This document shows positions 3,138-27,510 of a stretch of 54,773 bases of DNA, one piece after another. The notes under the pieces were generated by a model. That model did not search any database and was not told the origin of the DNA. It was given only the letters and a program-made list of their open reading frames with translations. A program made the position numbers and the translations under genes. Within the stretch, counting starts at the first letter, position 1. Each line of letters starts with the position of its first letter. Source of the DNA: an uncultured bacterium (GTDB lineage: Bacteria; Desulfobacterota; Binatia; HRBIN30; CADEER01). The stretch covers positions 3,829 to 58,601 of the forward strand of contig CADEER010000019.1 in the NCBI GenBank assembly GCA_902826395.1. Direction: 5' to 3'.

Positions 3138-5395
3138 CACAGCCGGGCGTAGCGCGCGCGAAGCCGCTGCCGGACGAGCTCCGCCAGGGTGTTTAGGGCG
3201 AACGTCACTGCGAACAACAACAAGGCCGCCAGGAACAGCACTCGATACAAGGTGCCGAACTGCGGCGCTTCTGGAATCTCGACCGCGATGTTGGCCGACA
3301 GCGTGCGAAAGCCATTGAACGGGCTCCAATCACGGATCGGCGTATTGCCGGTGGCCATCAGCACGATCATCGTCTCACCGACGGCGCGTCCGAAGCCGAC
3401 CATGATCGCCGAGAAGATACCGGGGCTCGCCGTGGGCAGTACGATGCGCGACACCGTCTGCCATCGGTTTGCGCCCAAGGCGAGCGAACCCGACACCAGA
3501 GTGCGCGGAACATTCGAGAAGGCGTCTTCGGAGATTGCGAATATGATCGGAATCACCGCAAAGCCCATCGCGAGGCCGACCACGATCGCGTTGCGCTGAT
3601 CGTATTGAAGTCCGACGACGCTGCGCAGCCAGGTCTGGAAACTGCCGCCAAACACGGCTGCCTCGAAAGCGTCGTTCAACGCGAGGCAGCCCGCGCCTGC
3701 CAGCGCTAGCGTCACCGCGAACACCAGCGCCTCAGAGCCCACCGGCATCCGGTTGCGCCATCGCACCGGCAGGCGCTCCCAGAGGCTGCCGGAGACGATG
3801 ATGACGACTGGGAAGGCGACGATCATGAGGAGGAGCGCCGAGAACACCTCTTCGATGCGGGGCGCGAGCCACAGGCCGGCAAGGAAACCGAGGACCACGC
3901 TGGGAAGTGCGGCCATGAGCTCAACCGTCGGCTTGATCACGTTGCGCAAGCGCGGATGCATGAACTGGGAGACGTACATCGCGCCGAGGACGCCCAGCGG
4001 GATGGCGATGAGCAGCGAGTAGAAAGTCCCCTTGAGCGTCCCGATCAACAGCGGCGTGAGACTGTACTTTGGCTCGAAGTCGTCGGTGCCGCCCGTCGAT
4101 TGCCAAACATACTCGGGTTGCGAATACCCCTCGTACCAGACGGGTGCGAACAGCGACCACAGGCTGACGTCGGGGTGGGGATTGTCCACCTCCAGAACCG
4201 AGATCGACTGCGATCCGCTCATCGCGATGCCATCGCCCTTTGGACTCATCACGACCGCCCGCACCGCCTCCACCTGGGCAGGCCCGCGCCACAACACACG
4301 CTCAGAAGTCGAATAGTACAGACCTACGTTGTCGGCGGCGTCGACGGCGACGAAGCCTTTGTCGCGGCGCGACGACGTGAGGTGTCGGATTGCCGAGGCG
4401 TGGGGCGGAAACTTGCGAATCAACGAGAGCGATTCGTGTCCCTCCGCCGCGACGGTCGGAAACCAGACTTGCAGACCGCCGCTCTCGAGACCGACGACGA
4501 GCGCTCGGCCTCCGAGCAGCAGGGTCAACGCCGTGATGTCGCCGTCGACCTGTGCGACCTCGATCGGCGGCGCCAGGCTCGGTCGTGCATCCCATCGATA
4601 GATCCGCCCGCCGGCCGCCGATCCGAACAGACTCTCCTGCTCGTCGTCGAGCACCAGGTGCTGCAGGTTGGCCGGCGCCGCTGCGAACGAACGCGACTCC
4701 GACTCTTTCGTTTCGCCCGTGAAGTCGTTCACCTCGCGCGAACGGCGGAAAAGCGCGATCTGCCCGGTTGCCGTGTGCGCGGCCAGCACTTCCGAGCCAT
4801 CCTCGGTCGTCCGCGCGACGAACGGCATGACCAGTCGATCTTCGGGCAACTGATACGACGACGGATCGCCGATCTCGACGGCGATCTTTCGCTGCCCCTG
4901 ATCGAAACTCACCTGCCAGGCGATGGGGACGACCGCGATCGAGCCCGAGCCGTCGAGCAGCGCGAGAAACCTCCCCTCGGGGTCCGCGAGGCCGGCCACC
5001 AACGAAGACATCGACACGTCGATCACCTTGCGCTCGTCGACGACGCTGCCGGACTCCAGGCTGCGAGCGCGAACGTGGCCGTCGCCGTCGACCGACACGA
5101 CGATGGATCGATATGGGTCGACCAGCAGTGCCTGCGCCGGTGGATCGACACTCAGCTTCGCATCCACCACCACCCGGGCGCCGCCCAACAGCGGCCACAC
5201 CTCGGCGACGATGAACACCAGAATCGCCAGGATGCTGGCAATAATGCCTACGCCGCCGGCGCGGACGACGATCGCCGCGATGCGGTCGGCCAAGGCACGC
5301 CGGTCGGGGATGGAAACGGCCCCGACCGCCGCAAGAGCGCCGGGGTCGCCCTCCGGAGTAGTCGCGTCGCCTCGCATCCTCATGGCAATCGGCAA
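3137..5395 (-). CDS. pstC: Phosphate ABC transporter permease PstC with large propeller-like extracytoplasmic region
   Basis: Second permease of the Pst importer. The 752-residue protein has one membrane segment at about 42-68, a soluble region of some 360 residues, then the permease core with the EAA loop SGSLALGANRWQTVSRIV. The soluble region has recurring short beta-type motifs (VVSVDGDGHVRARS, GGRIYRWDARPS, SGGLQVWFPT) that look like WD/PQQ-type propeller blades. The start used is TTG at 5393-5395, with GAGG close upstream; ATG at 5381-5383 or 5375-5377 would be equally reasonable. It begins 10 nt after pstS and overlaps pstA by one base, so the genes are surely co-transcribed. Confidence 0.94.
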   Translation of the reverse strand: MPIAMRMRGDATTPEGDPGALAAVGAVSIPDRRALADRIAAIVVRAGGVGIIASILAILVFIVAEVWPLLGGARVVVDAKLSVDPPAQALLVDPYRSIVVSVDGDGHVRARSLESGSVVDERKVIDVSMSSLVAGLADPEGRFLALLDGSGSIAVVPIAWQVSFDQGQRKIAVEIGDPSSYQLPEDRLVMPFVARTTEDGSEVLAAHTATGQIALFRRSREVNDFTGETKESESRSFAAAPANLQHLVLDDEQESLFGSAAGGRIYRWDARPSLAPPIEVAQVDGDITALTLLLGGRALVVGLESGGLQVWFPTVAAEGHESLSLIRKFPPHASAIRHLTSSRRDKGFVAVDAADNVGLYYSTSERVLWRGPAQVEAVRAVVMSPKGDGIAMSGSQSISVLEVDNPHPDVSLWSLFAPVWYEGYSQPEYVWQSTGGTDDFEPKYSLTPLLIGTLKGTFYSLLIAIPLGVLGAMYVSQFMHPRLRNVIKPTVELMAALPSVVLGFLAGLWLAPRIEEVFSALLLMIVAFPVVIIVSGSLWERLPVRWRNRMPVGSEALVFAVTLALAGAGCLALNDAFEAAVFGGSFQTWLRSVVGLQYDQRNAIVVGLAMGFAVIPIIFAISEDAFSNVPRTLVSGSLALGANRWQTVSRIVLPTASPGIFSAIMVGFGRAVGETMIVLMATGNTPIRDWSPFNGFRTLSANIAVEIPEAPQFGTLYRVLFLAALLLFAVTFALNTLAELVRQRLRARYARL

Positions 5396-6825: not shown

Positions 6826-8718
6826 ATGACGGCCACTCGATTCCTGGCGCTCGCCGCCCTGATCCTCACCGCCTCACCGAGCGGGGCGATGATCGTCTCG
6901 CTGGCGCCAAACGCAGACACCTATATTCGCACCGGTAACCAGAACTTCGGCAGCGACGCGTTTCTGCGCCTGCGAAGTACGGGGAACCACCGCTCCCTGG
7001 TTCGGTTCGACCAGAACGCCATCGCCGCTGCGGTCGGCGGAGGCGTCCTCCAGTCGGCCACCCTCGGACTGTTCATTGAATCGAACAACACCAGTTGGTC
7101 TACCGGTAGGCCGGTCGACGTCCATCGGTTGAGCACCGCTTGGACCGAAGCCGGCGCGACCTACAACTGCCCAAACGACACCGATACGACGAACGGGGCG
7201 GTCGACTGCCCGGTTCAATGGGACGGCGGCTCCTATGCCAGCACCCCGACCGCGTCCTACCTGCAAACGAACGAGTTGGTAGGCGCGATCGATCTCGACG
7301 TCACCTCAGATGTAGTCGCTTTCCTGGGCGGCACGCCGAACCAGGGATGGCTCGTCAAGAAACGCGATGAAAACCTCAACGGGCTCGTCGACTTCACCTC
7401 GCGCGAGGGGACGACTACGCAGGCGCCGAGGCTGGTGCTCGACATCTTCATTCCGCCGACCAACACGCCGACCAACACGCCGACAGTCACTCCGACGGCA
7501 ACGCCGTCGAGCACGGCCACTCCCACGCCCACTCCGGACCCAAATTGCGGACCACAACCTCTCGTCGGCTGCCGCCAGTCCGTTCAAGCCGGTAAATCGC
7601 TCCTCCTCATCAAAGACAAGGGAGGCGCGAGCGACGGGCTGCTCTTCAAATGGATCAAAGGGGAGCAGACAGACATCTCCGCCTTCGGAAACCCAACCGC
7701 CGACACCGATTACTCGTTCTGCATTTACGATCAGACCGCAGGCCAATCGTCGCTCGTCGCACGCGCCGAGATCCCGCCCGCCGGATCGTGCGGCGGCAAG
7801 CCGTGCTGGAAGGCCACGAGTAAGGGCTTTCGCTACAAGGACAGCCTCCTTCTTCAGGACGGGATCAAGGTCATCACCCTCAAATCAGGAGGCGACGGAA
7901 CCGCGAAGATCATTCTGAAGGGCAAAGGTTCCAACCTCGATCTCCCCTCTCTCCCACTCGATCAAGACCAGCAGGTCATCGCTCAGATCAAGAACGATAC
8001 CGGCGCTTGCTGGGAGGCGCGATTCAGCGGCCCGGCCAAAAAGAATGACTCGGACAGGTTCAAAGACGGCGCCGACACCGCAATCGTATTCCCGCCGTCG
8101 CCCACCCCGACCATGACGCAAGCCGTGACGCCCACTGTCACCTCTACACAACTCCCTACCTCAACACCCGGTGGACCAACTGCCACGCCAACTGCGACCC
8201 AGACGCCTGGCATCGAGAACTGCGGTAACGGCTTCCTCGAAAGCGGCGAGTTCTACGACGATTCCGACGTCGGCCTGCTCGGCGATCTCGATGGCTCCGA
8301 ATGCCCGGCCGACGCACAGGTGCTTCCGTGCACCGTGCTCGGCTCCGTGAGCGTCCGCGTCGACCTGATCCCAGCGGTGGCCACGCAGCCCACCGCCGCC
8401 ACCATCTTGGTCGGCTACAAGAGCGACCTTGCCAGCCTGCCAGCCGCGAAAGGTACATCCACCATCGCTCGCGTGACCTGGCCGCCGCCGCTTCCCTTCA
8501 TCCGCAACGCTACCGATTTCAATTACGCCTTGCGCGCCGTCACCGTGCGGACGGATGGACCCATCGACACAGATCAGCCTATGTTCACCATCAACTTCGA
8601 CGCATGCTCGGGACAGCCGCTTCCCGATCCGGCAACCGAGTTCGGTTGCATCGTCGAGGGCTGCAGCGGTCAAGGCGGCCCCATCGAGGGCTGCACTTGC
8701 GTGACGTCGGCGCCGTAG
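6826..8718 (+). CDS. Secreted modular protein: DNRLRE-type domain, two Thr-Pro linkers, two Cys-containing modules
   Basis: 630-residue exported protein of unknown function. Residues 1-22 form a Sec signal peptide. Residues about 23-205 resemble the DNRLRE/CBM96-type beta domain (start LAPNADTYIRTGNQNFG, end NQGWLVKK and RLVLDI). A Thr/Pro-rich linker (about 211-236) leads to a second module that begins near DPNCGPQPLVGC. Another linker (about 424-463) leads to a C-terminal module that starts with CGNGFLESGE, a degenerate form of the Cys-rich CGNG..E.GE..DD motif of myxobacterial-type surface proteins, and ends with GGPIEGCTC. There is no C-terminal anchor or sorting signal. GGAGGG precedes the ATG by 8 nt, and a strong terminator follows. 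Confidence 0.88.
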   Translation: MTATRFLALAALILTASPSGAMIVSLAPNADTYIRTGNQNFGSDAFLRLRSTGNHRSLVRFDQNAIAAAVGGGVLQSATLGLFIESNNTSWSTGRPVDVHRLSTAWTEAGATYNCPNDTDTTNGAVDCPVQWDGGSYASTPTASYLQTNELVGAIDLDVTSDVVAFLGGTPNQGWLVKKRDENLNGLVDFTSREGTTTQAPRLVLDIFIPPTNTPTNTPTVTPTATPSSTATPTPTPDPNCGPQPLVGCRQSVQAGKSLLLIKDKGGASDGLLFKWIKGEQTDISAFGNPTADTDYSFCIYDQTAGQSSLVARAEIPPAGSCGGKPCWKATSKGFRYKDSLLLQDGIKVITLKSGGDGTAKIILKGKGSNLDLPSLPLDQDQQVIAQIKNDTGACWEARFSGPAKKNDSDRFKDGADTAIVFPPSPTPTMTQAVTPTVTSTQLPTSTPGGPTATPTATQTPGIENCGNGFLESGEFYDDSDVGLLGDLDGSECPADAQVLPCTVLGSVSVRVDLIPAVATQPTAATILVGYKSDLASLPAAKGTSTIARVTWPPPLPFIRNATDFNYALRAVTVRTDGPIDTDQPMFTINFDACSGQPLPDPATEFGCIVEGCSGQGGPIEGCTCVTSAP

Positions 8719-16072: not shown

Positions 16073-17362
16073 ATGCCGACCAATTTCACGGAAAACGTCG
16101 ATCTCGAAGCAATCGCCCGTCGCGTAGGCACGCCATTCTTCCTCTACAGCGCCGACGTACTCCGCTCGAGAATCGAAGCCGTCAAAGCAATCACCCCCGG
16201 TGGCACCTTACAAGCGCGTTACGCGATGAAAGCGTGCTCGACTCGACGCATTCTCGAGGAAGTGTCGGCCGCCGGTCTGTGGATCGACGCGGTATCGGGC
16301 AACGAAGTTCTGCGCGCCAACGCCGCCGGATTCGCCCTCGGCCATCGCCCTCCGGTCATCCTCTATACGGCGGATGTCTTCCGGGACAACGCGCTCGCGG
16401 TCGTCGGTGAGACGGGCGTGCTTCCCAACATCGGGTCGCCCGCCATGATCACCGAGCTACACGACGCCGGCTATCGCGGCCCGATCGGCCTGCGGCTCAA
16501 CCCGGGCTTCGGCCATGGGCATGTTCGCGAATGCGACACCGGCGGCCCAAGCTCCAAGCACGGGATCTGGTATCGCGATGTCGAGCGCACCCGAGCCGCG
16601 GCGGCGAGCGCCGGCTTCCCCATCGTCCTCCTGCACGCGCACATCGGCAGCGGGCCGCAGATCGAAGAGTTCAATCGCAACATGGGGCTGCTCGTCGACT
16701 TCTTCACCGGCATGCTCGACGACTACCCCGATCTCGAAGCCGTCAACTTTGGAGGCGGCATTCCCCATCCATATCGTCCCGACGCCCCTCGCGTTGATCT
16801 CGCGCCGCTCGGCGCCCTGTTGTCCGAAGCGCAAAGGTCGCTCAGCAGCCGCGCCGGCCGGTCGATCCGCGTCGAGATCGAACCCGGCCGATTCTTCATC
16901 GCGCCGAGCGCCGTCCTGGTCGCCCGCGTGCACGACGTCAAGGAAACCAGCGAGAACGAAAAGGGCCCCGGCTACCGATTCGCCATGGTCGATGCGGGGT
17001 TCACCGACCTGGTGCGCCCTGCGATGTACGGCTCGTATCATCATATTTCGGTCCACGGCCGAGCGACCGCCGATCCTACCGAGTCCTTCATCGTCGCAGG
17101 CCCCCTCTGCGAGTCGGGCGACGTCTTCACCCGCGACGCCCGCGAGTTCCTCGAACCCCGTCAGTTGCCGCACCTGGCTTCGGGGGACCTGCTGGTCTTT
17201 CACGACACCGGCGCCTACGGCGTACAGATGAGCTCCTATTACAACTCGCTGGGTCGCGCCCCGCAGATCTGGCTCGAGGACGGAGATGCGCACCTGATCT
17301 CGCGGCGCGAGACGCTCGCCGACATCGTCGGCAACGAGTGCTTCGAGCCAATCTCCCTCTGA
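16073..17362 (+). CDS. lysA: Diaminopimelate decarboxylase LysA
   Basis: PLP-dependent fold-III decarboxylase that makes L-lysine from meso-diaminopimelate. The PLP lysine is K53 in RYAMKACS. Other family marks are HAHIGSG, NFGGGIPHPY, EPGRFFIAPSAVLVARV, the GPLCESGDVF motif that binds substrate from the partner subunit, and DTGAYGVQMSSYYN. 429 residues is usual. AAGGAAG lies just before the ATG. Closely related carboxynorspermidine or ornithine-type decarboxylases share this fold, but the CESGD motif and length favour LysA. Confidence 0.88.
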   Translation: MPTNFTENVDLEAIARRVGTPFFLYSADVLRSRIEAVKAITPGGTLQARYAMKACSTRRILEEVSAAGLWIDAVSGNEVLRANAAGFALGHRPPVILYTADVFRDNALAVVGETGVLPNIGSPAMITELHDAGYRGPIGLRLNPGFGHGHVRECDTGGPSSKHGIWYRDVERTRAAAASAGFPIVLLHAHIGSGPQIEEFNRNMGLLVDFFTGMLDDYPDLEAVNFGGGIPHPYRPDAPRVDLAPLGALLSEAQRSLSSRAGRSIRVEIEPGRFFIAPSAVLVARVHDVKETSENEKGPGYRFAMVDAGFTDLVRPAMYGSYHHISVHGRATADPTESFIVAGPLCESGDVFTRDAREFLEPRQLPHLASGDLLVFHDTGAYGVQMSSYYNSLGRAPQIWLEDGDAHLISRRETLADIVGNECFEPISL

Positions 17363-17431
17363 CGAAGCACCGCCGGGCGGCGACTCCGGGTCCGACGCGG
17401 GCGTGCGCTCTCGTCCGTTGCTCCAGAACTC

Positions 17432-17459
17432 TTGACGGCATTTCGATCGTGCTTAGCTT
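17432..17459 (+). promoter_or_regulatory. Possible promoter for the Hsp20 pair
   Basis: TTGACG (17432-17437) and TAGCTT (17454-17459) are separated by 16 bp, a fair sigma-70-like match, 55 nt before the first Hsp20 start codon. The CTTGA at the -35 would also suit a heat-shock sigma factor, but no CCCCAT-type -10 follows and no CIRCE repeat is visible. Confidence 0.35.
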
Positions 17460-17514
17460 CGGCGGCACAAGCGAAACGCCAAGTGCCAACGAGTTCTGCA
17501 AAGGAGGAACGACC

Positions 17515-17955
17515 ATGCTCTACGCTTTGACGGAGGCAAGTCCGCTGGACAGGTTCTGGGACTTCCGACGAGAATTCGATCGCCTCTTCGACGAGGCGTT
17601 CCCGTTCGGCAGACCGGAGGGTAGCTCGACGTCGTTCACCCCGGCGTTCGACTGGCAGGAGCAAGACGATGGGCTGTCGCTGCGGGTCGAAGTGCCCGGA
17701 GTCGAGCCCGACAAGCTGAACGTGTCGGTAACCGGCCACGTTCTCACCGTCGAGGGCGAACGCTGGTCCAAGAACGACGAGCACAGCGTCCACCGCAACG
17801 AACGCAGCTTCGGAAAATTCTCGAAGTCGCTTCATCTTCCCGAGCAGTACGATCTCGCGGCGGTCGAAGCCAAACACGAGAACGGCATCCTGACCCTGCG
17901 CATACCGAAGAGCGCCGCGGCAAAGCCGCGCAACATTCGCATCGAAGCGCGCTGA
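17515..17955 (+). CDS. Small heat shock protein, Hsp20 family
   Basis: 146-residue ATP-independent holdase chaperone. The N-terminal arm (FWDFRREFDRLFDEAF) is followed by the alpha-crystallin domain: FDWQEQDDGLSLRVEVPGVE, LNVSVTGHVLTVEGER, SFGKFSKSLHLPE and HENGILTLRIPK, then the C-terminal I-x-I motif (NIRI) used in oligomer assembly. The frame is open upstream, but AAAGGAGG immediately before the ATG at 17515 fixes the start. A second Hsp20 gene follows 36 nt later. Confidence 0.95.
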   Translation: MLYALTEASPLDRFWDFRREFDRLFDEAFPFGRPEGSSTSFTPAFDWQEQDDGLSLRVEVPGVEPDKLNVSVTGHVLTVEGERWSKNDEHSVHRNERSFGKFSKSLHLPEQYDLAAVEAKHENGILTLRIPKSAAAKPRNIRIEAR

Positions 17956-17991
17956 GGCGCGACCACCATCACCAGATCAGGAGGAGAGAAC

Positions 17992-18345
17992 ATGAGCACG
18001 AAAGAGCTGACGCGAGGGGCCGAGGCCACGTCGGTCAAGTACGTGACGCCCCGAGTCGAGATATCGGAAACGGAAACCGCCGTCCGCCTCTATGCGGATA
18101 TGCCCGGAGTAGGCCTCAACGGCGCTACGGTCGAGCTGCACGACGACGTGCTGAGCTTCGAGGGATCGGCGGAGAGCAGCAACGGGCGTTCCGCCAGACA
18201 CTATCGCCGCCGCTTCAACCTCTCCGACCCGGCCTTGTTCGACCTCGAAAAGATCGCCGCCAAGATGTCGCACGGTGTTCTCGAAGTCGAAATTCCGAAA
18301 GCGGCGAAGCCTCAGCCGCGCCAGATCAAGATCGCGACCACCTGA
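17992..18345 (+). CDS. Small heat shock protein, Hsp20 family (second copy, short N-terminus)
   Basis: 117-residue Hsp20 with a shorter N-terminal arm than its neighbour. Crystallin-domain marks are YVTPRVEISETETAVRLYADM, VELHDDVLSFEGSA, ARHYRRRFNLSD and MSHGVLEVEIPKA, and the C-terminal I-x-I is IKI. AGGAGGAGAG lies just before the ATG. Tandem divergent Hsp20 genes of this kind usually form hetero-oligomers or a two-component chaperone; that is inference from the pairing. Confidence 0.94.
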   Translation: MSTKELTRGAEATSVKYVTPRVEISETETAVRLYADMPGVGLNGATVELHDDVLSFEGSAESSNGRSARHYRRRFNLSDPALFDLEKIAAKMSHGVLEVEIPKAAKPQPRQIKIATT

Positions 18346-21140: not shown

Positions 21141-23150
21141 TCAGATACTCTCCGGGACGGCGCGTGCCGCCGCCAACCAGGCAACCGAGCTCGCGTCCGA
21201 CGGCATGCGCCAGTCGCCGCGCGGCGACAGGGACCCGCCGGAGCCGACCTTGGGACCGTCGGGTAGACAGTCGCGTTTGAACTGGCTCGCGAAGAAACGA
21301 TCGAGAAAGACGATCAGCCATTTACGGATCTCGCCAATCGCGTATCGCCCTTCGAACGCGTGTAAGCACATGCGCGCGATGCGCGCTGGATCCGAGCCGA
21401 AACGCAGGAAGTGATAGAGGAAGAAATCGTGCAGCTCATACGGACCGACGATCTCCTCCGATCGTTGCGCAATCTCGCCGGCGGCGTCGGGGCGCTTCAG
21501 CTCCGGCGATATCGGCGTCGCCAAGATATCTTCCAGCACCGCGCGCACTTCCACTTCTCCGGCAAACACGGTCTCGGCTGACCAGCGGATCAAATAGGTG
21601 ACGAGAGTCTTCGGGACGCCGGCGTTGACTCCGTAGTGCGACATGTGGTCGCCGCCGTAGGTGCACCACCCGAGCGCCAACTCGGAGAGATCCCCGGTGC
21701 CGAGGTCGATACCGCGATGGCGCGATGCCATCGCGAACAGGAGAATCTTGCGAATCCACGCCTGGACGTTCTCGAAGGTCAGGTCCTCGACGGTCGACGG
21801 ATGATCGATGACCGCAAAGACGTCCTCACTGAGCTGGTTGATCGAAAGCTCGAACAGTCGTGCGCCGATCGCATTCGACAAGGCGCGCGCGTTGCCGAGC
21901 GTGCGCTCGGTGGTGCCGAGCCCCGGCATCGTCACGGCCACGATGCGCTCCCTCGGCAGCTCGAGTAGATCCACCGCGCGGCTCGCCACGAGCAGGGCGT
22001 GCGTAGAATCCTGTCCGCCCGAGACTCCGATGACGATACGGCGCGATTCCTCCGGCAGCGCATTCAGGCGCCTCGCCAGCGACGTCGCCTGGATGTTGAA
22101 GACCTCGCGACAGCGCTCGTCGCGCCGTTCCGGGTCGGCGGGAACGAATGGATGAGCGGCGATCGCGCGGCGAAACGAAAGGTTGCCGTCGAAGCGCCTC
22201 GCGTCGCGATTGTCGCCGAACTCCACTGTTCGAAACGCGCGAGCGAAGTCCGCCGCATTGTCGGCGAACGACGACTGACGTACGCGATCCTGCGTCAGCG
22301 ACCGCAGGTCCACGTCGACGACCGCCGTCGTGCCGTACATCGTGAATCGTTCGCTCGCCGCGAGCAGTGTACCGCGCTCGGCGATCATGCCCTGCCCGTC
22401 CCATGCCAGGTCGTCGGTCGATTCGCCGAAGCCGGCGGCGCTGTACATCTGCACCGCCAGATTTGCCGCCGAAGACGCAACCACCAGATCGCGCCGGTAC
22501 TCCGCCTTGGCGACAGTTACGTTCGAGGCGGAGAGATTGGCGAGAATGGTCGCCCCGTGCAGCGCCGCCACCGCGCTCGGCGGAATCGGCACCCACAGGT
22601 CCTCGCAGACCTCGACATGAAGGGCGAAGCCCTCGATGTGGCGGGCTCGGAGAATCAGGTTCGTCCCGACCGGCACCACCTTCCCCAACAGCTCGATCTC
22701 GGTAGAACGACAGGCGCGCGCCGGCGAGAACCAACGGCGCTCGTAGAACTCCCGGTAGTTGGGAAGGTAGCTCTTCGGCGCGATCCCTATCGCCGCGCCG
22801 CGGTAGAGAGTCACCGCGCAATTGAAGAGGCCGCCGTCGAGCGCCAGAGGCAGCCCGACGCTGACGGCCATGTTCATGTGCGCCGTTTCACCCGCAACGG
22901 TGGACAGGGCATCTACGGCCGCGTGCTGCAGAACGTCGTCGAAGAAGAGGTCGCCGCACGTATAGGCGGTCAGACCCAGCTCCGGGCAGAGCGCGTACAC
23001 GGCGCCATCTTCGTGCGCAGCCGCGAGGAGTCGCAGATGCTCGACTGCATTCGCAGCCGCGTCGCCCACACTCACGCGTGGCACGACCACAGCGACCCGT
23101 GCGAAGCCGTGACGGCGGACGTCGAGAAAAGATGATCGTCGATCGATCAT
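21141..23150 (-). CDS. nadE: Glutamine-dependent NAD+ synthetase NadE
   Basis: Last step of NAD biosynthesis: amidates nicotinate adenine dinucleotide using ammonia from glutamine. Residues 15-290 form the nitrilase-type glutaminase with the E57-K126-C182 triad (CPELG, PKSYLPNY, EVCEDLW), closely matching the spacing of the mycobacterial enzyme. Residues about 345-669 form the synthetase with the P-loop SGGQDST (377-383). 669 residues is the long two-domain form. I start at the ATG of 23150; the frame runs 121 codons further upstream without family resemblance. The ribosome site is weak. Confidence 0.95.
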   Translation of the reverse strand: MIDRRSSFLDVRRHGFARVAVVVPRVSVGDAAANAVEHLRLLAAAHEDGAVYALCPELGLTAYTCGDLFFDDVLQHAAVDALSTVAGETAHMNMAVSVGLPLALDGGLFNCAVTLYRGAAIGIAPKSYLPNYREFYERRWFSPARACRSTEIELLGKVVPVGTNLILRARHIEGFALHVEVCEDLWVPIPPSAVAALHGATILANLSASNVTVAKAEYRRDLVVASSAANLAVQMYSAAGFGESTDDLAWDGQGMIAERGTLLAASERFTMYGTTAVVDVDLRSLTQDRVRQSSFADNAADFARAFRTVEFGDNRDARRFDGNLSFRRAIAAHPFVPADPERRDERCREVFNIQATSLARRLNALPEESRRIVIGVSGGQDSTHALLVASRAVDLLELPRERIVAVTMPGLGTTERTLGNARALSNAIGARLFELSINQLSEDVFAVIDHPSTVEDLTFENVQAWIRKILLFAMASRHRGIDLGTGDLSELALGWCTYGGDHMSHYGVNAGVPKTLVTYLIRWSAETVFAGEVEVRAVLEDILATPISPELKRPDAAGEIAQRSEEIVGPYELHDFFLYHFLRFGSDPARIARMCLHAFEGRYAIGEIRKWLIVFLDRFFASQFKRDCLPDGPKVGSGGSLSPRGDWRMPSDASSVAWLAAARAVPESI

Positions 23151-23364
23151 GAGATGGTCGCTCGGCCAGCGGGCTTTGCATACCCCAAAGGCGCTGCGCA
23201 CATCATACACACACACGGGACCACGTAAACGACATGCTCTCGTTCCCGATTCCTCGGTCGGGCCATCGCCTCGCCATATCCAGTTGCTAGCCTCCGACAT
23301 GGTCGTACCCTGGGGTGACAAGCAGCCGCGTCTGATATAACTCGCCCCATGGATAGGGAGTGCC

Positions 23365-23595
23365 ATGGGAGCCATCATCGATTTCGAAGCGCACCGTGCG
23401 CGGCGCGCCGTCCGTCGGCCAGTGGGACACGGCGGGCAATTCGTCGAGTGTGAAAACTGCCGAGAATGCCACCCAGTCGTCCGCATGGCTGGAGGCGAGG
23501 AGCGATGCGTCACCGCCTTCTACGACGGTCGCAAATGGTTCTGTAAGAATCGCGGCTGTCGCCAGGCCTGGTTGAAGCCACTGCAATCGTCTTGA
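23365..23595 (+). CDS. Small Cys-rich putative zinc-ribbon protein
   Basis: 76-residue protein with GGGAGTG just before the ATG. The N-terminus is MGAIIDFEAHRARRAVRR and the rest has ordered cysteines: CENCREC, then C in EERCV, and WFCKNRGC near the end. Two CxxC-like knuckles about 25 residues apart suggest a zinc ribbon, possibly a nucleic-acid or protein adaptor. I recognise no family. The opposite-strand frame overlapping it looks like noise. It lies between divergent nadE and the ABC protein gene. Confidence 0.6.
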   Translation: MGAIIDFEAHRARRAVRRPVGHGGQFVECENCRECHPVVRMAGGEERCVTAFYDGRKWFCKNRGCRQAWLKPLQSS

Positions 23596-23711
23596 GCTCC
23601 GGGCGCCAAGTCCGGACCGTTGAATAACGCCGCCGGGCCTGCCATCGGTTCGCTAGATCGCCGCCGCCGCGACCAACCCGCGGCCAGGGATCCCGGCGAA
23701 TTGCACTCGGC

Positions 23712-24764
23712 ATGGCGAACGCGCACATCGAACGACTGCAGCTTCACGAGGTCGTGTCATCGCTCGACCTGCGCATCGCTGACGGCGAGGCCATCAGCAT
23801 CCTCGGCGCGAGTCGCTCTCACAACACGCGACTGCTGCGCGCCATCGCCGGGCTCGAACCGCTCGACGCCGGCAGCATCGTCATCGGCGGAAGCCCGGTG
23901 CAGTCCCTGCCCCCGGGGCGCCGCGGCGTGGCGATGGTCTTTCGGGATCTGGCGCTCTACCCGCACCTCGATGTCGAAGGAAACATCGCATTCCCGCTGC
24001 GGGCCCATGCGAAGCCGGAGAGCGATCCGCGCGATCGTATCGACGACCTGGCCCACCAGTTCGATCTGCACGGCTGTCTCGATGCAATCCCCGCCGAGCT
24101 GACCGCGGCGCAACGCGTGCGCGTCGCGATCGCCCGCGCCCTAGCGCCGCGCCCGTCGCTGCTGCTGATCGACGACGCGCTCGCGGATCTTTCGAGCACC
24201 GAGCGCCTGGAGTTGCGCGGCGTGCTTCGACGCCTCCAGAGATCCTGGCGGTTGACCACACTGTACGCGGCAAGCGACTCGATCGAGGCGATGGGTCTCG
24301 CCGACCGCATCGCCATTCTGGCAAACGGCACCCTGCAACAGATCGACACGCCGGCCTTTCTGTACGCCAATCCCGCCACCGTCGCCGTCGCACAGACTCT
24401 CGGTGTGCCGCGCATCAACCTTCTCGAAGGCTCGCTCGTCGGCGATCGGCTCCAACTCGCCGATCAGGAGATCCGTCTCCCCACATCGCCACGCGCGGGA
24501 GCGACGAGCGACGTACTGGTGGGAATCCGCCCCGAGGCATTCGACGTCAACGGCGAGCGGAAGGACGCCGTCCTAGCCGTGCTCGATCCGAGCAGCCGGG
24601 AATTCTTCGGCAGTCACGCGATCGTCCACGGGCGCGTCGGCGATCAACCTGTCCGCGTTCGCGTCTCCGGCAACGCCGCCGACGTGCCACGGCGGGCGTA
24701 CGCAGCGGCCGCATCGCTGCTGCTGTTTCGGCGCGACAGCGGCGAGCGCCTGGTGATGGAGTAA
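23712..24764 (+). CDS. MalK/UgpC-like ABC protein with all ATPase motifs degenerate (putative pseudo-ATPase)
   Basis: 350-residue protein with the fold order of carbohydrate-importer ATPases: nucleotide-binding domain (about 1-225) plus C-terminal TOBE-type region (about 235-345, VLVGIRPEAFDV). Every catalytic motif is changed. Walker A reads GASRSHNTR (32-40) where GPSGCGKST is expected, so the lysine is lost. The Q-loop Gln is R78 (VFRDLALYPHL), the signature LSGGQ is LTAAQ (130-134), Walker B DEP is DDA (154-156) and the switch His is S188 (YAASD). The scaffold between motifs is well conserved. The frame is intact over 1053 nt, which argues against a recent pseudogene. No permease or binding-protein gene lies nearby. 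No clear ribosome site. Confidence 0.85.
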   Translation: MANAHIERLQLHEVVSSLDLRIADGEAISILGASRSHNTRLLRAIAGLEPLDAGSIVIGGSPVQSLPPGRRGVAMVFRDLALYPHLDVEGNIAFPLRAHAKPESDPRDRIDDLAHQFDLHGCLDAIPAELTAAQRVRVAIARALAPRPSLLLIDDALADLSSTERLELRGVLRRLQRSWRLTTLYAASDSIEAMGLADRIAILANGTLQQIDTPAFLYANPATVAVAQTLGVPRINLLEGSLVGDRLQLADQEIRLPTSPRAGATSDVLVGIRPEAFDVNGERKDAVLAVLDPSSREFFGSHAIVHGRVGDQPVRVRVSGNAADVPRRAYAAAASLLLFRRDSGERLVME

Positions 24765-24828
24765 TGGATTTGCCGCACGGAACCGAAACCCGTACCTTCG
24801 GGTCTATCCGATGAAGGAACCCTGTTCG

Positions 24829-25545
24829 ATGAAGTCGTTCGCGCACATGATCGCCCTTGCTACCTCGATGACTCTCATCGCCGCCGTCGGCGTCGCGGAG
24901 CCGATTGCGCCGCCCTCCATTGCGGTCACCGGACAGGGCGAGCACTCCGCCCCTCCAACCCTTGCCGTCGTCGGATTCGCCGTCGAGACCGCCGCGCCGA
25001 CCGCCGGCCAGGCCATGGACGAGAACGCGCGCAAGAGCCAGGCGGTGAGCGACGCGATCAAGGCCGCCATCGGAGACAAAGACCGTCTCTCGACGGCCGG
25101 CTTCGGACTCGACCCGGTGTACGACCATCGGCAGGAGCGCACCGGCAATCAGCCCCCCGCGATCACCGGCTACATCGCCCGCAACGAGGTGCGCGTCGAA
25201 ACCTTGAACACCAAGGATGTCGGGCAACTGATCGATCTGGCCACCAAGGCCGGGGCGAACCGGGTGTCCGGGCTTCACTTCACCATCGAAGACCAACGAG
25301 AGGCGCGTGACCGAGCGCTCGAAAAGGCCGCCGAGGATGCCAAGCGGCAGGCGAACACCATCGCCTCGTCGCTCGGAGTGCGCGTTGGCAAGGTTCTCGC
25401 GGCCACTACGTCACTCGCCAGCCAACCGCCGCCGATGCCATTTTTTCGAGCTGCAATGGCGATGGAAGCGCAAGCGACAACTCCGATCGAACCTGGCGAC
25501 GTACGCATCGAAGCAACCTTGCACGTCACCTTCGCAATCGACTGA
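24829..25545 (+). CDS. SIMPL-domain (DUF541) exported protein
   Basis: Periplasmic or surface protein of the SIMPL family, function not established. Residues 1-24 form a Sec signal peptide (MKSFAHMIALATSMTLIAAV). The mature part has the family pattern: IAVTGQGEHSAPPTLAVVGF, ARKSQAVSDAIKAAIG, TGYIARNEVRVET, ALEKAAEDAKRQANTIAS and the final VRIEATLHVTFAI strand. I chose ATG 24829 because AAGGA lies 10 nt upstream; the ATG at 24811 would add six residues ahead of the signal peptide. Convergent with the acyltransferase 13 nt away. Confidence 0.88.
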   Translation: MKSFAHMIALATSMTLIAAVGVAEPIAPPSIAVTGQGEHSAPPTLAVVGFAVETAAPTAGQAMDENARKSQAVSDAIKAAIGDKDRLSTAGFGLDPVYDHRQERTGNQPPAITGYIARNEVRVETLNTKDVGQLIDLATKAGANRVSGLHFTIEDQREARDRALEKAAEDAKRQANTIASSLGVRVGKVLAATTSLASQPPPMPFFRAAMAMEAQATTPIEPGDVRIEATLHVTFAID

Positions 25546-25558
25546 CGCGCGAGCCAGC

Positions 25559-26371
25559 TCACGTCGTCGGGTGGGCCTCGAGCGCGCCGCTGATGGCCGC
25601 CCGCGTGCGCTCGCTGAGCTCATCTACGAGATCCGACAGTTCGGCTTCCGCGCCTGCCCTCGCGGTTTCGATCGGTGTGCAGAAATCGACGAAGATCTCG
25701 CTGCCAGGATTGAGCTTCCACCAAGCGGTCCGCGCCAGAGCCCGGTGAGCGCCGCCAATCGCCGTTGGCAACAGCGGCAAATCGTTCGCCAGCGCGAAGT
25801 GAAAGGCGCCCTTCTTGAACGGCAGCAACTCACCGGTCTGCGATCGAGTACCCTCGACGAAGAAGACGATCTGGCCGCGCACACCGGCGAGCGCCGCAGC
25901 CGAGATCGAGCGAATCGCGCTCGATCTCCGGTCGCGGTCGACGATGATCTGGCCCGACGGCTTCAACACCCAACCGATGACGGGCCACCATGTCAGCTCC
26001 CGCTTGGCTACGAAGCGCATCGGCACCGGTACGGCGCTCATCAGGGCCATCACGTCGAACAGACTCGTGTGGTTCGCGCAGATGACGTGCGTGCGGCGCC
26101 AATCGATGGGGCTCTCTTCGCGCATCGAGAACGACATCCTGGTGAGCTTGAAGATGCCCGGCGCAAACAGCTCGCGCCCCACGAACTCGAGGCTCAGGAC
26201 GTTGCGGTCGATCTGCCTCTCGAGCGCGTCGTCATCGCCCAACCATCGCCGAACGACGCCGATCAGGTACCGCGCATAGACGAGCAAGACCAGCGGCAGC
26301 CCGACCATCGCCGTCCATACCAGGCAGAGACCGACGCGGATCCAACTTCCCATCAGATGCAGAAGGTTCAT
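25559..26371 (-). CDS. 1-acyl-sn-glycerol-3-phosphate acyltransferase-like protein (PlsC family)
   Basis: Membrane acyltransferase that probably makes phosphatidic acid for phospholipid synthesis. An N-terminal membrane segment (about 10-35) precedes the acyltransferase domain with motif I NHTSLFD (HxxxxD), motif III FFVEGTRS, and PLLPTAIGG as motif IV. 270 residues is typical. It lies 77 nt after argC on the same strand. Acyl-acceptor specificity cannot be settled from sequence. Confidence 0.9.
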   Translation of the reverse strand: MNLLHLMGSWIRVGLCLVWTAMVGLPLVLLVYARYLIGVVRRWLGDDDALERQIDRNVLSLEFVGRELFAPGIFKLTRMSFSMREESPIDWRRTHVICANHTSLFDVMALMSAVPVPMRFVAKRELTWWPVIGWVLKPSGQIIVDRDRRSSAIRSISAAALAGVRGQIVFFVEGTRSQTGELLPFKKGAFHFALANDLPLLPTAIGGAHRALARTAWWKLNPGSEIFVDFCTPIETARAGAEAELSDLVDELSERTRAAISGALEAHPTT

Positions 26372-26448: not shown

Positions 26449-27510
26449 TCAGGGATGGAGACCGCGCATCTCGAGACCCATTTCCTCCGGCAGACCGAGC
26501 ATGCAGTTCATGTTCTGAATCGCCGATGAGGCGGCCCCCTTGCCCAGATTGTCGAGAGCCCCGATGGCGACGATCCGTCCGCGCCGCGGATCGACGTCGA
26601 GACCAATCTGGACGTAGTTCGACCCCGCCAGGTAGGCGACGTTCGGATACGGGAGATACTGCCACGACACGGACGGATCGATCGGCATCGAGATGACGTC
26701 GACGAACGGCTCGCTGCCGTAGAACTCGCAGTACAGGTCCACCAATTGTGCGCGGCTCACGTCGCGGGTCATGAATCCGTTGCAGGTGGCGAGGATGCCG
26801 CGCGTGAACGGAGAGAACACCGGAGTGAAGTGGACGCGCACGCTGGCGCCCGCGACGCCGCTCAGCTCCTGCTCGACCTCGTAGGTATGGCGGTGATCGA
26901 CGACGTTGTACGGCGTCACCGAGTTGGAGATCTCACTATGGCTGCTCTGCGGCTTCGGCTCCGCCCCCATGCCGGACGTGCCGGTCATCCCGGTCACGAC
27001 GATCCGCTCGAGCTCGACCCAACCGGCGCGCACCAGCGGCGCCAGAGTCAGAATCGTCGTGTAGGCGAAGCAGCCCGGATTGGCCACCAGGTCGGCCTTG
27101 CGGATCTCGTCGCGATGCAGCTCCGTGGCGCCGTAAGGCGCTCGTTCGACCAGATCCCAACACGCGTGCGGTCCGCCGTACACGCGAGCGAAGAGATCGG
27201 GATCTTTCAGCCGGAAGTCGGAACCGACGTCGATCACCTTGGCGCCGCGATCGAGATAATCCTTGGCCCGCGTCATCGATTCCCGGTGCGGCATGCAGAG
27301 GAAGACGACGTCGCAATCGCCAGCCTCCTCCTCGCGCACGAACTCTAGATTCGTCCCGAGCAGGTTGCGGTGCACCTGCTCCAGGCGCTTGTCGCCGCGC
27401 GACGTGATCCACGCGAGCTCGGCCCGCGGGTGCCCGAGAAGCAGTCGGATCAGCTCGCCCCCGGAGTATCCGGAGCCACCGACGATCCCAACTCTGACGA
27501 TTTCCTTCAT
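26449..27510 (-). CDS. argC: N-acetyl-gamma-glutamyl-phosphate reductase ArgC
   Basis: NADPH-dependent third step of arginine synthesis, reducing N-acetyl-glutamyl phosphate to the semialdehyde. The Rossmann motif VGIVGGSGYSGGELIRLL is at the N-terminus, the catalytic cysteine is C147 in ANPGCFAYTT, and HRHTYEVEQEL carries the catalytic histidine region. 353 residues is normal for the long form. No other arg gene is in the window; it sits between ychF and the acyltransferase. Confidence 0.96.
   Translation of the reverse strand: MKEIVRVGIVGGSGYSGGELIRLLLGHPRAELAWITSRGDKRLEQVHRNLLGTNLEFVREEEAGDCDVVFLCMPHRESMTRAKDYLDRGAKVIDVGSDFRLKDPDLFARVYGGPHACWDLVERAPYGATELHRDEIRKADLVANPGCFAYTTILTLAPLVRAGWVELERIVVTGMTGTSGMGAEPKPQSSHSEISNSVTPYNVVDHRHTYEVEQELSGVAGASVRVHFTPVFSPFTRGILATCNGFMTRDVSRAQLVDLYCEFYGSEPFVDVISMPIDPSVSWQYLPYPNVAYLAGSNYVQIGLDVDPRRGRIVAIGALDNLGKGAASSAIQNMNCMLGLPEEMGLEMRGLHP

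Follow-up and report, generated by a model that had tools for sequence, protein, structure and literature searches.

A MalK-type ABC protein without its ATPase motifs is conserved in a genus of Binatia

A MalK-type protein with replaced catalytic motifs

The DNA analyzed here, referred to as the window, is a 54,773-nucleotide stretch of contig CADEER010000019.1 (assembly GCA_902826395.1) from an uncultured bacterium of the class Binatia. Protein comparisons make this class probable: a 365-amino acid protein of G019, a genome of the same class, is identical to P0121, which is assigned at its source to Candidatus Binatia. With a PurH-type protein, the named Binatia genome G527 gives 58%, within the 53–79% spanned by the seven genomes of the class, and eight other named genomes give 54% or less over their longest matches. 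On its forward strand, at 23712..24764 (stop codon included), lies a gene for a 350-amino acid protein of the MalK/UgpC type of ATP-binding cassette (ABC) proteins, in which every catalytic motif has been replaced while the reading frame and the fold have been retained. This protein is a member of a clade of similarly altered proteins that is under selection and in which the C-terminal domain, rather than the ATPase domain, is now the better conserved part.

The frame comprises 350 open codons (23712-24761) followed by a TAA stop, and the encoded protein begins with MANAHIERL, a choice of start codon that is backed by a Met-Ala start conserved across the clade. The protein matches the PF00005 (ABC_tran) profile with 64.6 bits against a cut-off of 25, and residues 231–277 match the OB_MalK profile with 27.8 bits against a cut-off of 27, revealing the fold of MalK with its C-terminal OB/regulatory domain. 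The top NCBIfam model is UgpC, although the 239.4 bits obtained lie below the cut-off of 432 for that model, and among sequences of solved structure the best match is 1v43, the ATPase of a sugar importer (E 4.7e-54). Within 23100-25600 there are a single sigma-70-like site and four matches resembling terminators, none of them decisive. A protein found by database search, P0001, differs from the window protein only by A204T and L288P.

Alignment with relatives confirms the replacements that had been named in the original prediction. The former Walker A motif (residues 32–40, 23805..23831) reads GASRSHNTR, with Lys38 changed to Asn; the Q-loop Gln has become Arg78 (23943..23945), the LSGGQ signature has become LTAAQ (residues 130–134, 24099..24113), and Ser188 occupies the position of the switch His (24273..24275). 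In Walker B (24171..24176), Asp154 is retained and the adjoining catalytic Glu is represented by Asp155. Thus, all five of the motifs expected of a working PF00005 protein are replaced, whereas each of 20 control ATPases from the class has the same five intact, with LSGGE as the signature in one of them. A further loss, which had been overlooked initially, is a four-residue deletion in the A-loop region (23736..23747) that removes the aromatic residue (Phe or Tyr) of this loop.

A clade of catalytically dead relatives

Full-length orthologs that are likewise catalytically dead, 47–55% identical in sequence, are present in three other genomes of the genus (G001, G002 and G003; the window genome is G000). 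All four copies lack the signature, the catalytic Glu, the switch His and the Q-loop Gln, and only the G003 copy retains Walker A. None of the four genes is interrupted by a stop codon or frameshift. Additional members were collected from a set of 5.8 billion proteins, with each search scoring the 7998–7999 candidates that shared the most words with the query. Fifteen close matches were obtained, an alignment search added P0016, and P0016 as a query added P0017, P0018 and P0020. After removal of P0001 and of P0015, a truncated version of the G001 copy, and addition of the G001 and G002 copies from their genomes, 20 distinct dead sequences remained, among which P0006 is the G003 copy and P0002 is an 88% neighbor of the window protein. 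The 16 members from outside the four genomes are known from their protein sequences alone.

These 20 sequences were aligned with 10 intact copies from genomes and 116 other search matches (146 rows), of which three of the last group repeat genome copies, leaving 123 distinct relatives outside the clade. Neither LSGGQ nor the switch His is intact in any of the 20 dead sequences, and the Q-loop Gln persists in three. The A-loop aromatic residue is absent from all 19 dead sequences that reach this site (P0020 is too short there): it is deleted in the 16 sequences of the core set and replaced by Ala, Gly and Asp in P0016, P0017 and P0018, respectively. By comparison, Phe or Tyr occupies the site in 121 of the 126 alignment rows outside the clade, and 122 of the 123 distinct relatives pass all five motif tests, the exception being P0075 with VSGGQ. 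Asp154 is invariant in the clade, and Asp155 is present in 19 of its 20 members, even where Walker A is gone. The occurrence of related losses in three other genomes and 16 further proteins rules out a recent lesion or an assembly error, and the homologs with related losses whose existence was to be checked have thus been found.

Fourteen of 148 genomes of the class (14 candidates scored per genome) yielded matches at E 1e-85, comprising the four dead genus members and 10 proteins with intact motifs. At the same threshold, only the window itself was found among 395 genomes drawn from the phylum, with five candidates scored per genome. A scan of contigs with a 16-row alignment returned, as its best 80 loci, MalK-type matches of 31–43% identity from many phyla, a set that may include dead relatives and from which near relatives of the window genome were possibly omitted.

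The conserved Asp-Asp pair raises the question of whether the protein could be an ATPase that uses Asp154 and Asp155 in an alternative chemistry. Other ABC proteins can retain slow hydrolysis after a Glu-to-Asp change at this position, as described in PMC7756269. Such activity seems scarcely credible in the window protein, from which Walker A Lys, signature, switch His, Q-loop Gln and A-loop aromatic residue are all missing together.

Descent from transporter-linked ATPases

A tree was constructed from 53 rows, consisting of the 20 dead sequences, 23 intact members of the subfamily (13 drawn from the 116 other search matches, the rest being the 10 copies from genomes) and 10 other MalK-type proteins, after exclusion of the N-terminus and of all motif columns. 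Even without these columns, the dead sequences are monophyletic (support 100/99). They are nested within the intact subfamily, where a single fork (support 98/92) unites every dead sequence with 20 of the 23 intact ones. The dead clade therefore arose inside a group of intact, transporter-linked ATPases. The minimum number of changes required on the tree is four for strict Walker A, three for the Q-loop Gln and two for the catalytic Glu, indicating that the whole clade shares the loss of signature and His and that Walker A disappeared later, more than once.

This history bears on the possibility that the proteins are non-hydrolyzing sensors of a nucleotide or small ligand, with most relatives still binding ATP or ADP by means of their Walker A and some lineages, including that of the window, having dropped Walker A and been left with a C-terminal OB pocket as the sensor. 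The strict Walker A of 13 of the 20 members, together with the Asp154-Asp155 pair, would be in keeping with such a function, and the C-terminal domains of ModC and MetN are described as binding small ligands (PMC10710835). The consistent absence of the A-loop aromatic residue speaks against it, as do the Walker A changes, at least four on the tree, which imply that nucleotide binding is not essential in all members. We therefore consider a sensor rather unlikely, albeit the most plausible of the alternatives weighed here.

Conservation of the C-terminal domain

The C-terminal MalK-type OB/regulatory region of the window protein spans residues 233–350 (24408..24761) and carries a pattern, summarized as LDP...GS...PRxAxA, that is conserved throughout the dead clade. 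Its first part (residues 291–301, 24582..24614) reads LDPSSREFFGS in the window protein, and among the 20 sequences P293 and G300 are invariant, L291, D292 and S301 are each found in 19, and R296 in 17. The second part (residues 326–331, 24687..24704) reads PRRAYA, with P326, A329 and A331 present in all 20 sequences and R327 and an aromatic residue at position 330 (Tyr or Phe) in 19 each; between the two parts, G307 has a single exception. At L291, G307, R327 and A329, the intact rows are variable and most often carry a different residue.

The distribution of conservation along the chain is inverted relative to that of intact proteins. Over residues 20–225, mean pairwise identity is 0.512 in the core dead set (n = 16), as against 0.750 in intact relatives (n = 10) and 0.693 in other MalK-type proteins (n = 10), whereas over residues 277–346 the corresponding values are 0.576, 0.437 and 0.348. 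This contrast between domains was equaled in none of 20,000 site permutations and in six of 349 circular shifts, the latter being the fairer test because it respects neighboring sites. Within the dead clade, the C-terminal domain has taken over from the ATPase domain as the more conserved portion of the chain.

Selection on the gene

Across the four genus genomes, identity is highest at the second codon position, followed by the first and then the third. A star-tree codon model gave a ratio of nonsynonymous to synonymous substitution rates (omega) of 0.054 for the four copies and rejected omega = 1 (2dlnL 360), although silent sites are saturated (third-position identity 0.35–0.49, with branch lengths in agreement), so this estimate is good to an order of magnitude only. 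On the codon evidence the gene is under selection, as had been supposed. The supposition had been drawn from the absence of stops and frameshifts over 1 kb, an argument that proved weak at this GC content. When base substitution was simulated neutrally without insertions or deletions, 192 of 2000 runs left the window frame open, and the frames of the G001, G002 and G003 copies survived in 7, 545 and 137 of 2000 runs, respectively. Because frames can survive in this manner in GC-rich DNA, the claim of selection is carried by the codon pattern rather than by the open frame.

The same data allow us to evaluate the proposal that the gene is a functionless relic, decaying slowly and held open by high GC. 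It diverges faster than the six genes with which it was compared in every pairing of G000, G001 and G002, its omega is the highest of the seven, motif loss varies between species, and neutral drift leaves the window frame open in approximately 10% of simulations. However, the codon-position structure is strong and omega is far below 1, the length of the protein is nearly constant (349–351 amino acids in all but one of the 16 core sequences, and 358 in that one), the C-terminal pattern is conserved and specific to the clade, and the position of the gene is fixed in the genus. A decaying gene is accordingly rejected on the codon evidence, and we regard a relic as very improbable.

Genomic context and the missing transporter

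The gene resides within a conserved set of neighbors. A divergent gene for a glutamine-dependent NAD synthase (21141..23513, reverse strand) precedes a small open reading frame (ORF) for a zinc-ribbon-like protein of 76 amino acids (23365..23595, forward), which is directly upstream of the dead gene. A SIMPL/DUF541 protein (PF04402; 24811..25545, forward) is encoded directly downstream, and beyond it are genes on the reverse strand for an acyltransferase (PF01553; 25559..26371) and an ArgC-like semialdehyde dehydrogenase (26449..27510). This order and these orientations are identical in the window, G001 and G002. The G003 contig, of 3,707 bases, covers part of the same order and ends past a downstream start that, as judged by eye, resembles a signal peptide. 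In G004, which represents another genus of the same family, the NAD synthase, zinc-ribbon and SIMPL genes are present and no ABC gene lies between the latter two, so that the gene was either inserted in the line leading to the present genus or removed from that of G004.

Two further observations concern these neighbors. The zinc-ribbon-like ORF is conserved in all five family genomes compared (the window genome and G001 to G004). The GTG start listed for the NAD synthase overlaps this ORF, and comparison with G004 places the true start probably near 23150.

As noted originally, no transporter genes lie beside the dead gene; neither a permease nor a binding protein is found among the five neighbors described above. 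At three loci of intact relatives (L024, L027 and L028), genes for a binding protein and a permease adjoin that of the ATPase, and a fourth (L026) has a binding protein and matches to a permease. With the L028 permease as the query and a threshold of E 1e-8, no match was found in any of the four genus genomes, an absence that is not absolute given that all of these are drafts of 130–1200 contigs, and that concerns the permease alone, no genome-wide search for binding proteins having been made. This query matched in all five other genomes besides its own, at 61–70% identity in four and 30% in G004. Elsewhere in the window, approximately 20 kb upstream and not adjacent to the dead gene, are an ABC ATPase-like ORF (586-1467, reverse) and a type I permease match (3158-4003, reverse).

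The genus does retain permeases of other importers (4–13 PF00528 matches per genome), and this leaves room for the protein to tune transport as a degenerate subunit, either paired with an active ABC ATPase or seated on the permease of another importer. Permeases dock on the helical subdomain of ABC ATPases. The residues L82-Y83-P84-H85 beside the Q-loop are largely conserved in the core set, but the helical subdomain (residues 86–128) is the least conserved part of the ATPase domain (0.380). Pairs with one degenerate site are common among ABC proteins, according to PMC7756269. The arrangement of such a pair, in which a dead Walker B is combined with a usable LSGGQ, is not observed in the clade: none of the 20 members has kept the signature required by a partner or the switch His of its own site, and the catalytic Glu is found in one. 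The nearest other MalK-type ATPase of the window genome is the CysA of a complete sulfate importer, and partnership with this importer was rejected because it has its own CysA. We judge a degenerate subunit to be improbable, as the signature is gone across the clade. A regulatory partner of a true ATPase, one of the two roles suggested in the original prediction, is thus not upheld in the sense of such a subunit, given the loss of the protein's own Walker A, Glu and His and of the LSGGQ needed by a partner, and given that the type of permease found with its relatives had no match in the genus.

A separate observation concerns the cys genes of the window genome. At locus L186 (G000, contig C51; 3371-5407, forward), a single frame of 679 amino acids contains a CysW permease (residues 22–281) and a CysA (residues 331–675), a possible fusion.

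A proposed role without ATP

In an ABC dimer, an ATP site is composed of Walker A and B and the A-, Q- and H-loops of one chain and the signature of the other (PMC7756269). The window chain lacks both sets of residues, and the clade as a whole lacks the signature and the His; therefore, no normal working site that includes this chain is expected, whether it forms a homodimer or joins a live ATPase. We propose that the protein is probably a free-standing, ATP-independent regulator or scaffold, maintained by purifying selection in four species, that would bind a cytoplasmic protein via its C-terminal domain. By analogy, E. coli MalK is described as sequestering MalT and as being bound by EIIA-Glc (PMC10305011, PMC10710835). 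Read most simply, the importer may have been lost first, leaving a chain that kept a protein-binding task like that of E. coli MalK towards MalT and EIIA-Glc. The old ATPase domain would then serve as a rigid body without nucleotide-driven closure of the dimer. Constraint remains on this body and on the C-terminal domain, the latter of which would provide the binding surface. More tentatively, we envision that a MalK lineage in Binatia, having lost its sugar importer together with all of its ATP chemistry, acquired a new conserved C-terminal surface and became an ATP-independent regulator, such that a former side activity in holding other proteins is now the whole function. The earlier suggestion that the protein sequesters a signal protein as MalK does finds partial support in the displacement of conservation towards the C-terminal domain, while the holding role itself is suggested by analogy.

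Several observations weigh against this proposal, including the saturation of silent sites and the draft state of the genomes noted above. The protein-binding role is proposed by analogy with MalK. Because 13 of 20 members, including the G003 copy, have a strict Walker A, many relatives may still depend on binding a nucleotide, and one member, P0017, has an intact catalytic Glu. Of the seven genes compared, this one is under the weakest constraint, its neighbors having omega values of 0.007–0.039, and its amino-acid identity (0.42–0.55) may be set beside that of SIMPL (0.47–0.52) and NAD synthase (0.70–0.75). When the four genus copies are considered alone, the contrast between domains is small, with identities of 0.479 for residues 231–350 and 0.458 for the ATPase domain (residues 30–230); within the C-terminal region, residues 266–350 reach 0.538 and residues 231–265 reach 0.338. 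Finally, the weak conservation of the helical subdomain points to possible drift in some of the former ATPase domain.

The combination of features distinguishes the dead clade from known systems. Intact importer ATPases of the MalK/UgpC type (for example at L005 in G034, L007 in G008 and L009 in G012) are 38–44% identical and share the same domain order, but all of their motifs are kept, and in the operons scanned at L024, L027 and L028 the ATPase adjoins a binding protein and a permease; the dead protein has neither these motifs nor such an operon. E. coli MalK differs in being an active ATPase, in MalFGK2. In the ABC subunits with degenerate sites described in PMC7756269, namely those of TAP, TM287/288 and Pdr5, one chain has likewise lost catalytic residues (Lys, Glu and His in the first site of Pdr5), yet these subunits are part of transporters with a second, live site, whereas the dead chain also lacks the signature and adjoins no transporter. 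A single dead ATP site is a familiar feature of ABC proteins, but in those cases a second site continues to hydrolyze ATP. Here an entire clade is without catalytic residues and without the signature for a partner, has no adjoining transporter in the genus, and is still selected. As in SUR and the ABCF/GCN20 proteins, the ABC fold appears to be used outside transport. ABCF proteins hydrolyze ATP, whereas the window protein is predicted to be non-hydrolytic.

Among the papers listed by searches of the open PMC library, we recognized none that describes a free-standing dead MalK. The clade represents a natural separation of the MalK body from its motor, with relatives that have between none and several of the motifs left, and it opens to testing the question of whether an ABC fold can persist without ATP as a platform for binding. 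Three of the 20 sequences (P0010, P0016 and P0020) bear the name "sugar transport ATPase" at their source, a label that is probably wrong for the dead clade.

Other features of the window

A tandem pair of Hsp20 genes is present at 17338-18345 on the forward strand, and counterparts of both genes occur in G001 and G002.
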